Source of the DNA: Cystobacter fuscus
GTDB lineage: Bacteria; Myxococcota; Myxococcia; Myxococcales; Myxococcaceae
Direction of reading: 5' to 3'
Assembly: GCF_002305875.1 (NCBI RefSeq)
Contig: NZ_CP022098.1
Location: 2,790,001-2,854,000 of the forward strand
DNA: 64,000 nucleotides
Translations under genes and position numbers: made by a program
Shown here: piece after piece, positions 40,960-46,765 of the stretch
Numbering within the stretch: the stretch's first letter is position 1
How the letters are laid out: the number at the start of each line of letters is the position of its first letter
Notes under the pieces: generated by a model
Database searches by the model: none
What the model saw: only the letters and a program-made list of their open reading frames with translations
Told to the model about the DNA's origin: nothing

Positions 40960-40993
40960 GGGCAGGCGGGTTCATTCCCGCGTGCCCGCTTTT
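40960..40993 (+). terminator. Intrinsic terminator after prolyl oligopeptidase
   Basis: The arms gggcaggcggg and cccgcgtgccc form an 11-bp stem with one mismatch and the loop ttcatt, followed by gcTTTT. It lies between the convergent prolyl oligopeptidase and dps genes and fits termination on the plus strand. Confidence 0.65.
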
Positions 40994-41469
40994 CAGCTCT
41001 CGAGCGAGGCGCGCAGGAACCACGCGTGCTTCTCGAACTCGGTGATGATGCCGGTGAACAGGTCCACGGTGTCCGTGTCCTGGTGCTGCTCGGCCGCCTT
41101 GCGGCTGTCGCGCAAGCCGACGAGGTAGCCTTCGATCCGCTCGGCCAGGAGCTTCACGTGCTCCAGGTCCTTCGTCGTCTCCTGCGGGTAGTCCGCCAGC
41201 CGGCTCGTCTTGGCCACGTAGCGGCTGGTGCCGTAGGCCTTGCCGCCCAGTGTCACGGCGCGCTCGGCCACCGAGTCGTTGTGGTTGGCCAGGCTCACCG
41301 CGAACGTCTCGAAGAGCGGATGGAGCGCCGCGAACTGCGGGCCCTTGATGTTCCAGTGCGCGACCTTGATCTGGCTGTGCAGATCCAGGCCGTCGGCCAG
41401 ACGCGCGTTGAGCTGCTCGACGAGGGCGGCGCGGGACTGCTCGGGAAGGGGGCTCGGGCTGCGGTACAT
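40993..41469 (-). CDS. dps: Dps family ferritin-like DNA protection protein
   Basis: This 158-residue protein of the Dps/miniferritin family has the inter-subunit ferroxidase residues in KVAHWNIKG (His) and in the HNDSVAERAVTLGG helix (Asp and Glu). These would oxidise ferrous iron with peroxide and protect DNA during stress. The ATG at 41469 follows AAAGGA. It lies on the same strand as ahpCD but a terminator-like hairpin separates them, so it is likely independently expressed with possible read-through. The context is clearly oxidative stress. Confidence 0.93.
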   Translation of the reverse strand: MYRSPSPLPEQSRAALVEQLNARLADGLDLHSQIKVAHWNIKGPQFAALHPLFETFAVSLANHNDSVAERAVTLGGKAYGTSRYVAKTSRLADYPQETTKDLEHVKLLAERIEGYLVGLRDSRKAAEQHQDTDTVDLFTGIITEFEKHAWFLRASLES

Positions 41470-41520
41470 GTGGATGTCCTTTCTGAAGAGTGTGGATTGG
41501 ATGCACGAGGGCGCAAAAGG

Positions 41521-41554
41521 AAGCGCCCCCCGGTGGTGATACCGGAGGGCGCTT
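41521..41554 (-). terminator. Intrinsic terminator after ahpD
   Basis: The arms aagcgccccccggt and accggagggcgctt form a 14-bp stem with one mismatch and the loop ggtgat. On the minus strand it is followed by ccTTTTgcg. It lies between ahpD and dps and should end the ahpCD transcript. Confidence 0.7.
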
Positions 41555-41587
41555 CTGGGAAGCCCGCGCGATGGGGAACTGACGGCT

Positions 41588-42115
41588 TTACGACTCGAGA
41601 CCGACCGCCGCCGCGTGGATGACCGAGGCGATGCGGATGGCATCGTTCACCTGATCCTCGGAGATGCCACCGTCGATGACGACCTTCTCGTGCGACTGCA
41701 CGCACATCTCGCAGCCGTTGATGGCGCTCACCGCGAGGCAGACGAGCTCGAAGTCCACCTTGTTGGTGAGCACCTGCCCCAGACGATTCATCCGCAGACC
41801 GGGCCGCTTGGTGGAGTAGGACTCCTTGCCCACCATGTGACGGAACCGGTAGTAGATGTTGTTCATCCCCATCAGCGAGGCCGCCGCGCGGGAGTCCTCG
41901 ATGACGGGCTCGGCCTGCTCGCCGAGGGCCTGGCGGGCCTCGTGGAGAATGGCCTTCTTGAGCAGCTCGTTGCGCGAGGCGTAGGCACACGCCACGGCCA
42001 CGCCCCAGCGCTGAGTGGGGGTGAGGCTGTTGTTCTCCAGCACGGACTGGAGGTTGAGGCGGGTGTCCTTGTGGGCATCCGCCAGCTCACCGCGAACGAC
42101 TTCGAGCGACGCCAT
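41588..42115 (-). CDS. ahpD: Alkyl hydroperoxidase AhpD family protein
   Basis: This 175-residue protein of the carboxymuconolactone decarboxylase/AhpD family has the catalytic CxxC with the downstream His in NGCEMCVQSHEKVV (Cys135, Cys138, His142). Two arrays of helices make the usual domain. AhpD reduces the adjacent peroxiredoxin AhpC. It begins 6 nt after the ahpC stop, so the two are translated from one transcript. The ATG at 42115 follows the ahpC end directly. Confidence 0.93.
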   Translation of the reverse strand: MASLEVVRGELADAHKDTRLNLQSVLENNSLTPTQRWGVAVACAYASRNELLKKAILHEARQALGEQAEPVIEDSRAAASLMGMNNIYYRFRHMVGKESYSTKRPGLRMNRLGQVLTNKVDFELVCLAVSAINGCEMCVQSHEKVVIDGGISEDQVNDAIRIASVIHAAAVGLES

Positions 42116-42121
42116 GACGCC

Positions 42122-42676
42122 TTACCCCGCCTTCGCCAGCTTGGTGGTGAGCGTCTCCTCGCCCTTCTGCCAGTTGCAGGGGCACAGCTCGTCCGTCTGG
42201 AACGCGTCCAGCGTGCGGAGCACCTCGCTCACGTTACGGCCCACCGACAGGTCGTTCACCGACACGTGCCGGATGATGCCCTCGGGGTCCGCGATGAAGG
42301 TGGCGCGCAGGGCCACGCCCTCGTCCTTGTGCAGCACGCCCAGCGCCGCGCTCAGCTCGCGCTTGATGTCCGCCAGCATCGGGAAGGGCAGGGCCTTGAG
42401 GTCCGGGTGGTGCGTGCGCCACGCGTGGTGCACGTACTCGCTGTCCGTGCTCACGCCGAGGATCTGCGCGTTGCGATCCTGGAAGTCCTTCTCGCGCTTG
42501 CCGAACTCCGCGATCTCCGTGGGGCAGATGAAGGTGAAGTCCTTGGGCCAGAAGAAGAGCACCGTCCACTTGCCCTTGTAGGAGCTCTGGTTGATGTCCT
42601 TGAACTCCTTGCCCTTCTCGAGGCTCACCACGCCCTTGAGGTTGAACGCGGGAATCTTGTCGCCAACGGTCAGCAT
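42122..42676 (-). CDS. ahpC: Peroxiredoxin AhpC
   Basis: This 184-residue 2-Cys peroxiredoxin has the peroxidatic Cys51 in FTFICPTE and a C-terminal resolving region LCPCNWQKG (Cys165 or Cys167), as in the AhpD-dependent actinobacterial type. The C-terminus is shorter than in the AhpF-dependent proteins. The ATG at 42676 has AAGGAG upstream. No ahpF is present, which agrees with AhpD serving as reductant. A sigma-54-type promoter lies about 70-85 bp upstream. Confidence 0.95.
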   Translation of the reverse strand: MLTVGDKIPAFNLKGVVSLEKGKEFKDINQSSYKGKWTVLFFWPKDFTFICPTEIAEFGKREKDFQDRNAQILGVSTDSEYVHHAWRTHHPDLKALPFPMLADIKRELSAALGVLHKDEGVALRATFIADPEGIIRHVSVNDLSVGRNVSEVLRTLDAFQTDELCPCNWQKGEETLTTKLAKAG

Positions 42677-42745
42677 GTTCTTCGACTCCTTGGATGGGGG
42701 CCTGCTTGCTTCCAGGCCCGGGTGGTGAAGTTCGTGTACTCTCAA

Positions 42746-42761
42746 AGCAGCCGCCGTGCCA
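42746..42761 (-). promoter_or_regulatory. Sigma-54 (-24/-12) promoter for ahpCD
   Basis: On the minus strand the sequence TGGCACGGCGGCTGCT has an exact GG-N10-GC pattern and matches the consensus TGGCACG-N4-TTGCT at all but one position. The start point would fall near 42735, giving a leader of about 60 nt before the ahpC ATG. Confidence 0.65.
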
Positions 42762-42811
42762 GAACACGTCCTTCGTGATTCCAGGGGGTTGCTGCTCCCC
42801 CGTGTTCCAGT

Positions 42812-42872
42812 CGGTGCCGCCGGGACGGTGCATACCGAAATAACGGTGTCCGGCGCCACTGACATTTCGGTG
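42812..42872. promoter_or_regulatory. CGGTG repeats: candidate enhancer sites for the sigma-54 activator
   Basis: CGGTG occurs at 42812, 42826, 42844 and 42868. The 11-mer tcggtgccgcc is directly repeated at 42811 and 42867, and accgaaat (42834) pairs with atttcggt (42864) as a perfect inverted repeat. The block lies about 75-135 bp upstream of the predicted ahpC start point, the usual enhancer distance. Confidence 0.5.
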
Positions 42873-42897
42873 CCGCCCCGGTTATCTACGTAGACGT

Positions 42898-44520
42898 ATG
42901 GCGGATGACATCGTTGCGGTGGCACGTGCGGAATGGCGCGGGGAAGCCCGGGACCTGGTCGAGCTGGCGACCTCGGAGCGGCCGGTGGCGGAGCTGCTGC
43001 GCCGGGGGCTGGAGTGGCTCACCCGGGTGGTGCGCTTCGATCTCGCCACGCTCTTCTTGCTGCGAGAAGGAAAGCTGGTGGCGGTGGTGGCCCGGGGGCC
43101 CCTGGCGAGCGAGCGGGTGCGCCGGCACGAGCTGCGGCTGGCGGACTTCCCCTCGCTGCGCCAGGCGCTGGAGACGCGGCGGGCGCGGGCCTTCACGGAC
43201 GAGGACCACTCGCATGGAGATGGGGACCCGTTCGACGGGGTGTTGGACCTGCCGCCCGGGCACTCGTGCATGGTGGTGCCCCTGTGCGCGGCGGAGCGCT
43301 GCTACGGGCTGCTGACGTTGGATAGAACCGAGTGCGAGACGTATCCGCAGTCGGTGGTGGATCTGGTGGAGGTGTACGGGCAGATGCTGGCCACGTCGCT
43401 GCAGGAGGTCGAGCAGAAGAGCTCGCTCGAGCGGCTGCACCAGCGCGAGCACGAGCACGCGCGGCTCTTGGAGTCCCAGTTGGGCGGGGACGAGGTGGGG
43501 GTGTTGGAGACGTCGCGCAGCCCGGTGGTGCGCGAGCTGGCGATGCGGGCGCGGCAGGTGGCGGAGACGGACACGCCGGTGCTGTTGCTGGGCGAGACGG
43601 GCACGGGCAAGGAGCGGCTGGCGCGGGCGGTGCACCGCTGGAGCACCCGGGCGGAGGGGCCCTTCGTGACGCTCAACTGCGCGGCCATTCCCGAGGGGCT
43701 GCTGGAGAGCGAGCTGTTCGGCCACGTGAAGGGCGCGTTCACCGGGGCCACGAAGGACCGGGCCGGGCGCTTCCAGATGGCGCACGGGGGCACGCTCTTC
43801 CTCGACGAGGTGGGGGAGATGCCGGTGGAGCTGCAGGCCAAGCTCTTGCGCGCCCTGCAGGAGAAGACCTTCGAGCCGGTGGGCAGTGACAGGACGGTGC
43901 GCGCGGACGTGCGCATCCTCGCCGCCACGCACGTGGACCTGCGCCAGGCCCTCTCCCAGCGGCGCTTCCGCGAGGACCTCTATTACCGGCTGAGCGTCTT
44001 TCCCCTGCGGCTGCCGCCGTTGCGCGAGCGGTTGGAGGACCTGCCGCTCCTGTGTGCCTTCCTCCTGGAGGAGCAGGCCCGGAGGACGGCGCGGCGGGGG
44101 ATGAAGGTGGCGCCGGAGGGGCTCGCGCGCCTGGCGGCCTACGACTGGCCGGGCAACATCCGCGAGCTGGCCAACGCCCTGGAGCGTGCCACCATCCTCT
44201 CGCGCAAGCGGGAGCTGGGCGCCGAGTCCTTCGACGTGCCCGCGCGGGCGCCCGAGCCGAAGCGTCCGTCCGAGCCCGCCCCCGCCCCCGTGCCCGTCTC
44301 GCAACACGTGGAGGAGGGCTCCGTGGCGACGCTGGAGGAGGTGCAGCGCCAGCACATCCTGCGTGTGCTCGCCCGTACGCAGGGCCGGCTCTACGGCCCC
44401 GGGGGTGCCGCGGCGCTGTTGGGTCTCAAACCCTCCACGCTGCAAAGTCGCATGAAGAAGCTGGGCATCACGCGCCTGGAGCAATACGTCGCCACTCCGT
44501 CGTCCCCTCCCGGGAAATAG
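42898..44520 (+). CDS. Sigma-54-dependent enhancer-binding protein (GAF-AAA-Fis)
   Basis: This 540-residue activator has an N-terminal GAF sensor (about 25-170) containing Cys124, Cys130, Cys135 and Cys146. The AAA domain has Walker A GETGTGKE (about 232), the sigma-54-contacting GAFTGA at 279-284 and Walker B TLFLDEVGEM (about 299-308). A Pro/Ala linker leads to a C-terminal Fis-type HTH (AALLGLKPSTLQSRMKKLGI). It is divergent from ahpC across 221 bp carrying a -24/-12 promoter, so control of ahpCD is likely. The overall layout resembles NorR. A Cys-based peroxide or redox signal is an inference. The palindrome tctacgtaga lies just before its ATG. Confidence 0.92.
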   Translation: MADDIVAVARAEWRGEARDLVELATSERPVAELLRRGLEWLTRVVRFDLATLFLLREGKLVAVVARGPLASERVRRHELRLADFPSLRQALETRRARAFTDEDHSHGDGDPFDGVLDLPPGHSCMVVPLCAAERCYGLLTLDRTECETYPQSVVDLVEVYGQMLATSLQEVEQKSSLERLHQREHEHARLLESQLGGDEVGVLETSRSPVVRELAMRARQVAETDTPVLLLGETGTGKERLARAVHRWSTRAEGPFVTLNCAAIPEGLLESELFGHVKGAFTGATKDRAGRFQMAHGGTLFLDEVGEMPVELQAKLLRALQEKTFEPVGSDRTVRADVRILAATHVDLRQALSQRRFREDLYYRLSVFPLRLPPLRERLEDLPLLCAFLLEEQARRTARRGMKVAPEGLARLAAYDWPGNIRELANALERATILSRKRELGAESFDVPARAPEPKRPSEPAPAPVPVSQHVEEGSVATLEEVQRQHILRVLARTQGRLYGPGGAAALLGLKPSTLQSRMKKLGITRLEQYVATPSSPPGK

Positions 44521-46180: not shown

Positions 46181-46765
46181 ATGCCGTTCACGTTGCCCGA
46201 ACTGCCCTACAACAAGGATGCACTCGCCCCCCACATCAGCGCGGAGACGCTCGAGTACCACCACGGCAAGCACCATGCCGCGTACGTGACGAACCTGAAC
46301 AAGCTGCTGGAGGGCAAGCCCGAGGCCAACCAGTCGCTCGAGCAGGTCATCCTCAGCAGCGACGGGGGCGTCTTCAACAACGCCGCCCAGGTGTGGAACC
46401 ACACCTTCTACTGGAACTGCATGAAGCCCAACGGCGGCGGCAAGCCGACGGGTGACCTCGCGGACGCCATCAACCGCGACTTCGGCTCGTATGAGAACTT
46501 CCGCGAGCAGTTCTCCAACGCCGCCGCCACGCAGTTCGGCTCGGGCTGGGCCTGGCTGGTGCTCGACAAGGACAAGCTGGCCATCACCAAGACGGGCAAC
46601 GCGGACCTGCCGATGAAGCACGGCCAGAAGGCGCTGCTGACCATCGACGTGTGGGAGCACGCCTACTACATCGACTTCCGCAACGCGCGCCCGAAGTACA
46701 TCTCCACGTTCCTCGACAGCCTCGTCAACTGGGACTTCGTCACCCAGAACCTCAAGACGCGCTGA
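46181..46765 (+). CDS. sodB: Iron superoxide dismutase
   Basis: This 194-residue Fe-type superoxide dismutase has metal ligands His27 (YHHGKHHAAY), the His in WNHTFYWNC, and the Asp and His of DVWEHAYYIDF. The AAATQFGSGWAWLV segment follows the Fe-type pattern. No signal peptide is present, so it acts in the cytoplasm. The ATG at 46181 is preceded by AAAGGA. It is divergent from the XRE-cupin gene and lies close to dps and ahpCD. Confidence 0.96.
   Translation: MPFTLPELPYNKDALAPHISAETLEYHHGKHHAAYVTNLNKLLEGKPEANQSLEQVILSSDGGVFNNAAQVWNHTFYWNCMKPNGGGKPTGDLADAINRDFGSYENFREQFSNAAATQFGSGWAWLVLDKDKLAITKTGNADLPMKHGQKALLTIDVWEHAYYIDFRNARPKYISTFLDSLVNWDFVTQNLKTR

Follow-up and report, generated by a model that had tools for sequence, protein, structure and literature searches.

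The gene divergent from ahpC in Cystobacter fuscus very probably encodes a NorR-like, self-regulating activator of peroxide scavenging, which would act through three palindromes and a σ54 promoter. At the level of sequence comparison between genomes, the sites, the promoter, the spacing between them, the linkage of the sites to the activator gene and the joint loss of promoter and activating loop are established.

A σ54-type activator gene next to ahpC

We analyzed a 64-kb stretch of DNA, here called the window, from a genome of 12.35 Mb. The repeats under study (42811-42877) lie within a 221-bp intergenic region with ahpC on one side and a divergent activator gene on the other. The features of the locus are the following.

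41588-42115, minus strand: ahpD (TIGR00777, E 3e-48, under its cut-off; TIGR00778 and PF02627, over theirs)
42122-42676, minus strand: ahpC, peroxiredoxin (PF00578, E 1.4e-40)
42746-42761, minus strand: predicted σ54 -24/-12 promoter of ahpC, TGGCACGGCGGCTGCT, 11 of 12 consensus positions
42773-42791, minus strand: conserved block between enhancer and promoter, mean information 1.23 bits
42815-42830, no strand: site 0, weak palindrome TGCCGCCGGGACGGTG, the one closest to ahpC, centred 61.5 bp from the T of the -24 element of its promoter
42833-42848, no strand: site 1, TACCGAAATAACGGTG, centred at a distance of 79.5 bp from the same T
42857-42872, no strand: site 2, CACTGACATTTCGGTG, centred at a distance of 103.5 bp from the same T; it overlaps the region in which the -35 element of the activator gene is expected
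42882-42888, plus strand: -10-like element of the activator gene, TTATCTA, 9 nt before the ATG
42898-44520, plus strand: NorR-like activator gene, with GAF domain, σ54-activating AAA+ domain with GAFTGA, and Fis-type HTH

ahpC and ahpD probably form one operon. The activator combines an AAA+ domain (PF00158, E 1.6e-70) that contains the GAFTGA loop with a Fis-type HTH (PF02954, E 6e-6), and with tandem upstream sites and a -24/-12 promoter at its target it has what defines a σ54 enhancer-binding protein (bEBP). The regulator at this locus is thus a bEBP and not of the LysR type. A scan for σ70 promoters and terminators returned no match. The surroundings of the locus are an oxidative-stress neighbourhood: a ferritin-like (Dps-type) gene follows ahpD at 40993-41469, with a hairpin between the two at 41520-41555 that was seen by eye and not by the terminator scan, and an Fe/Mn superoxide dismutase gene (46181-46762) lies 1.7 kb past the activator gene.

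Three palindromes in the intergenic region

The initial annotation had pointed to four CGGTG copies, an 11-bp direct repeat and an 8-bp inverted repeat. All of them are present: CGGTG starts at 42812, 42826, 42844 and 42868, the direct repeat TCGGTGCCGCC occupies 42811-42821 and 42867-42877, and ACCGAAAT (42834-42841) stands opposite ATTTCGGT (42864-42871). The CGGTG cluster exceeds chance. Four copies within 67 bp of one strand occur at a single place in the window, and when the 221-bp region was shuffled 5,000 times by dinucleotides, 0.04% of the shuffles reached such a cluster. Of the same shuffles, 0.6% contained an 11-bp direct repeat and 9.7% an 8-bp inverted repeat within 40 bp, which makes the latter unremarkable by itself.

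Of 96 family genomes, 70 have an orthologue of the activator (E <= 1e-110), with 71 matches in total, and in 63 of the 71 loci ahpC is divergent from the activator. Among these 63 orthologous intergenic regions, 36 carry at least four CGGTG copies, and the first copy (42812-42816) is conserved partly. The exact ACCGAAAT/ATTTCGGT pair is kept in 10/63 and [A/C]CGAAAT...ATTTCGGT in 53/63. Two copies of the 11-bp direct repeat were seen in a single one of the 63 regions; this repeat is therefore incidental and was ruled out as a functional unit.

The meaningful units are three 16-bp inverted repeats whose starts are 18 and 24 bp apart, and their right arms account for three of the four CGGTG copies. 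Sites 1 and 2 give the symmetrised consensus CACCGAAATTTCGGTG. Conservation was assessed in an alignment of 53 of the 63 regions, from which eight long ones and two near duplicates were omitted. Mean information per position was 1.16, 1.55 and 1.79 bits for sites 0, 1 and 2, and 0.78 bits for the rest of 42690-42880. Every position of TCGGTG in site 2 (42867-42872) is kept in 53/53 rows and each position of GGT in the right arm of site 0 (42827-42829) in 52/53; because many of the compared genomes are close relatives, the rows are not independent and such counts are inflated. Site 0 of the window scores under the threshold of 12, and three other loci (L011, L166, L167) have a strong palindrome around its position. 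The annotation had made its reading depend on conservation of the repeats in orthologous loci, and there the palindromes proved to be conserved.

Spacing between the sites and the ahpC promoter

We looked for σ54 promoters by a simple consensus count, taking as a match at least 9 of 12 positions with GG and GC correctly spaced. The set comprised 70 ahpC loci (63 divergent, six separated and one outside the family; L012 and L169 were omitted), and 66 of them gave a match. The two strong sites are centred 78.5-80.5 and 102.5-104.5 bp from the -24 element in 49/66 loci, at 89.5-90.5 and 113.5-114.5 bp, some 11 bp more distant, in 16/66, and at 81.5 and 105.5 bp in the one other locus. Placement of the cluster at enhancer distance from the ahpC promoter, as the annotation had it, is borne out by the three centres, all of them upstream of the conserved -24 element.

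Joint loss of the GAFTGA loop and the σ54 promoter

The activators of the 66 loci with a σ54 match carry the loop as GAFTGA (60), GSFTGA (4) or GAYTGA (2). In five activators this loop, which contacts σ54, is broken or missing (L011, L167, L012, L168 and L229). At the ahpC genes of L011, L167, L168 and L229 the scan found no σ54 match, and none was seen by eye at L178, which lies in the L012 genome and was taken to be the second part of that locus. These five genomes fall in four genera. rpoN was found in four of them, and the fifth (G102) is 82% complete. All five loci keep at least one palindrome scoring at least 18. They possibly represent a switch from σ54 to conventional regulation. HupR is an enhancer-binding protein without GAFTGA, and proteins of this type resemble the five activators, whose ahpC promoters show no -24/-12 element, but differ from the window activator, in which GAFTGA is intact. 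In L168, a perfect palindrome CGTTGCTATAGCAACG lies close to the ahpC promoter and perhaps serves another regulator.

The sites track the activator gene

The site-2 16-mer CACTGNNATTTCGGTG was found in 65 of the 96 family genomes, 64 of them among the 70 that have the activator and one among the 26 that do not, and a reversed control pattern gave one match in 96 genomes. The lone 16-mer in a genome with no activator detected (G012, L209) lies on a stretch on which neither activator nor ahpC was seen, and the frequency of the control pattern suggests a chance match.

The sites also stay with both genes when these move apart. Eight loci (L039-L046) have extra DNA between ahpC and the activator; all eight keep two sites at the ahpC end and at least one at the activator end, where six have at least two. 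In six genomes the activator has been relocated (L047, L136, L138, L140, L142, L145), and two sites lie upstream of it in 6/6 while the distant ahpC has two sites and a σ54 match, again in 6/6. Taken together, all 14 of these loci have at least one site with a score of at least 12 next to each of the two genes, and ahpC retains its σ54 match in all of them. This co-occurrence, the retention after separation or insertion, the distances from the -24 element and the persistence of palindromes where loop and σ54 promoter are gone strongly support the proposal of the initial annotation that the repeats are likely binding sites of the divergent activator. What it had overlooked is the 16-bp palindrome as the unit, the incidental nature of the direct repeat, the probable overlap with the activator promoter and the copies at catalase genes described below.

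Further support for direct binding comes from an activator paralogue (L169, genome G043) that adjoins a catalase gene (L289). Its recognition helix reads PPTTLQS, while 72 of 75 homologues have KPSTLQS, and the palindromes near it, AACGAAATAGCGTT and CGACGATATTTCGTTG, have CGTT instead of CGGT arms. This co-variation of helix and half-site argues for direct contact between activator and palindrome, as far as sequences can indicate it. Outside the family, 4 of 99 genomes of the phylum have activator homologues (E <= 1e-105), two of which have a palindrome beside rubrerythrin or ahpC: L227 is divergent from a rubrerythrin gene (PF02915) with CACCGATATTTCGGTG and L229 from ahpC with CACCGAAAAATCGGTG. 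The third (L228, genome G163) is divergent from a gene of the multihaem cytochrome type; its half-sites differ, and a strong σ54 match was noted there by eye. At the fourth (L230) no palindrome was seen. A search of contigs with the activator also returned at least 80 loci that were set aside, having mainly the AAA+ part in common at 33-52% identity.

The activator promoter and probable autoregulation

A consensus scan for σ70 found no promoter for the activator gene in the window. Of 68 loci, 45 have a -10 element of the TATTAT type, which in 36 of the 45 ends 9 nt ahead of the ATG, and six have TTATCTA, the form in the window. Motifs resembling a Shine-Dalgarno sequence lie upstream of the activator in 3/68 loci. 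Given this rarity and the short distance from -10 to ATG, the activator mRNA is probably leaderless. The promoter region of the activator gene probably overlaps site 2, which would then serve negative autoregulation. For comparison, in Vibrionales the gene for NorR2 is described as having a NorR2 site but no σ54 promoter (PMC1274295).

A probable second target: catalase

A loose tandem pattern matched 94 of 96 genomes, with lower but non-zero numbers for controls. Among the matches listed we chose by eye ten palindrome-like, mostly repeated places (L217-L226). Several of them lay upstream of catalase genes (PF00199, E 8e-176), and all close catalase orthologues were then tested. Of the 54 found, 52 were analyzed jointly, without L269, whose coding sequence was too short for anchoring, and L289, the catalase beside the activator paralogue, with one hit at 13.5 and no good σ54 match. 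The counts also leave aside L290, a distant catalase with no site. Motif hits scoring at least 8 averaged 3.43 per catalase upstream region, over 54 regions that include L289 and L290, versus 0.026 in mononucleotide shuffles, and at least two such hits were present in 52/52. At a strict score of 15.8, that of the lowest training site, 48/52 had at least one site and 25/52 had two. The upstream regions of 17 paralogous catalases gave one hit in total.

All 52 catalase promoters have a σ54 match of at least 9/12, and they carry sites though the activator gene is not adjacent. The most frequent site spacings are 26/24/20 (10/52) and 28/24/20 (7/52). The nearest site is centred 59.5-62.5 bp from the -24 T in 49/52, and this agreement with ahpC depends on the weak site 0 of the window at 61.5 bp.

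The conserved block between enhancer and promoter reads CAAnCCCCTGGAATCAnTG at ahpC and CAAnCCnTTGAAATCAnTGG at catalase, with an identical distance to -24. The consensus for integration host factor (IHF) is YAANNNNTTGATW. Best matches of 8 or 9 of its 9 positions, on either strand, were found in 26/52 catalase promoters (shuffled, 2.1%) and in 13/60 ahpC promoters, some on the opposite strand (shuffled, 1.2%); the window block matches 6/9 positions. The block is thus IHF-like in catalase promoters and weakly so in the window, and CAAnCCCCTGGAATCAnTG is placed where an IHF site would aid looping.

This catalase is not found in the window's own genus (0/4 genomes). A tandem-site search of this genus returned the ahpC locus in 4/4 genomes and 0 to 3 other places in each, compared with 0 to 4 for the control. 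Because the genus is without the catalase and the extra tandem sites are no more than in the control, the regulon that can be assigned in the window genome comprises ahpCD and the activator. A search of the window genome itself gave five palindrome places; the two that were inspected (L233 and L235) are inside predicted reading frames. Two other places caught our eye. In G011 (L224, 3961-4043), three palindromes and, by eye, a σ54-like element lie just downstream of hemH, and in G003, a genome of the window's genus (L296, about 1500-1540), tandem perfect palindromes lie near a PAS histidine kinase gene. Neither locus has an obvious peroxide role.

Do the sites serve the activator and ahpC?

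Three other explanations of the palindromes were considered. That the repeats merely reflect chance or the composition of a G+C-rich intergenic region finds some footing in the frequency of 8-bp inverted repeats among shuffles and the poor conservation of the 11-bp repeat, but is scarcely conceivable in view of the conservation of the palindromes, their specificity across whole genomes and their recurrence at catalase. Another DNA-binding protein might use the palindromes while the divergent activator binds elsewhere, as the 16-mer in G012, a genome without detected activator, could be taken to mean. We consider this very unlikely, since the sites go with the activator gene from genome to genome and stay with it when it is separated from ahpC, and the paralogue with an altered recognition helix has altered sites nearby. 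It is also most improbable that the sites serve autoregulation of the activator only, with ahpC under other control: separated activators do keep their sites, and no -24/-12 element facing ahpC was seen there, but sites and σ54 match remain on the ahpC side in 14/14 split or separated loci, and catalase promoters have sites away from any activator gene. An activator that uses the palindromes both for σ54-dependent activation and for control of its own gene is the reading we prefer.

The sensor domain and the likely signal

The best NCBIfam model for the activator is NorR (406.1 bits; next best, 350; cut-off, 476). Like NorR, the regulator of norVW in E. coli and of norAB in Ralstonia, it has the domain order GAF-AAA+-HTH and a σ54 target operon. 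Assignment to NorR itself was rejected, as the score is under the equivalog cut-off and the operator is different. Numbered after E. coli NorR, whose iron centre involves R75, Y98, D99, H111 and C113, D99 is kept in 73 of 75 homologues and H111, C113 and D131 in 75/75, Y98 is F in 71/75, R81 is replaced in 74/75 (by E in 72) and R75 is present in 0/75, with S, T, M, Q, A or E in its place. The GAF domain adds His104 and Cys146, both invariant (75/75). The window activator thus shares with NorR three tandem upstream inverted repeats and the counterparts of D99, H111, C113 and D131, but differs from it in the absent R75, the replaced R81, the added His104 and Cys146 and the other sequence of its HTH. 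Its palindrome ACCG-N6-CGGT is unlike the NorR operator, given as GT-N7-AC in the passage on it in PMC1274295, and its targets are peroxide scavengers. In short, the activator would work like NorR, yet it falls below the NorR score and has another operator.

We therefore weighed whether the activator might sense NO like NorR, so that AhpC would be induced against peroxynitrite or nitrosative stress by the same DNA mechanics. The NorR model as best match, the retained residues and the three tandem enhancer sites, as described upstream of E. coli norV in the relevant part of PMC2941729, speak for this. The replacement of R75 in every homologue speaks against it: R75 is the ligand that NO is postulated to displace (PMC2941729). 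So do the operator and the neighbours and targets, which are ahpC, catalase and rubrerythrin and not NO reductases or Hmp. On balance we regard NO as an unlikely signal. Since NorR residues are kept, His104 and Cys146 are added and ahpC, catalase and rubrerythrin are neighbours or targets, the signal is probably peroxide, which might be perceived via a modified iron centre or via the pair Cys124/Cys146.

OxyR, of the LysR family, and PerR, of the Fur family, both control ahpC and catalase genes. ahpC and catalase are likewise the controlled genes here, but the regulator is a σ54 enhancer-binding protein. An OxyR-like LysR protein is encoded elsewhere in the window genome (281.8 bits; cut-off, 329, reached in 0/12 genomes), so that control of the peroxide response in this genome may be shared.

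From gene numbering we take Mxan_1565 of Myxococcus xanthus to be the divergent neighbour of MXAN_1564; it is probably the orthologue of the window activator. MXAN_1564 is AhpC according to the entries for it in PMC7643160 and PMC4158809. Mxan_1565 appears in Table 1 of PMC8570273 as an NtrC-like activator, listed merely as a mutant of a swarming study with reference to earlier work, and this entry mentions no peroxide role or site. In a search of open-licence papers, which is weak evidence of absence, no σ54 activator of ahpC or catalase was recognised; RpoN and stress resistance in Campylobacter are a subject of PMC3196706.

A model for activation of ahpC

Binding, the oligomeric state of the activator, DNA bending, autorepression and the chemical signal are what we infer in the following model. 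The divergent NorR-like activator would bind the three tandem palindromes at 42815-42872. An oxidant, most likely peroxide sensed by the GAF domain, would free the AAA+ ring, and the DNA would loop, perhaps helped by IHF or another bending protein at 42773-42791. The GAFTGA loops could then remodel σ54-RNA polymerase at the -24/-12 element of ahpC (42746-42761), and ahpC-ahpD would be expressed. At sites 1 and 2 the activator would overlap its own promoter region and so regulate, probably repress, its own gene. Catalase, too, may be driven by this activator in many relatives, through a similar enhancer.

We see about an even chance that the Myxococcota have a σ54 peroxide regulon of ahpCD, catalase and, distantly, rubrerythrin, run by a NorR-related activator whose NO-sensing iron centre has been rebuilt for peroxide, as an alternative to the two regulators normally credited with peroxide regulons, OxyR and PerR. 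If the proposal is true, most of the family, that is the 70 of 96 genomes with the activator, may run AhpC via σ54, and many of them catalase as well, and the regulator of those peroxide genes would be a relative of the NO sensor NorR. The operator, the promoter layout and the residues His104, Asp113, His122, Cys124, Asp142 and Cys146 make such a change of the GAF signal testable. In the lineages that lost both GAFTGA and the σ54 promoter, nature would offer a test of how a conventional regulator may arise from an enhancer-binding protein.
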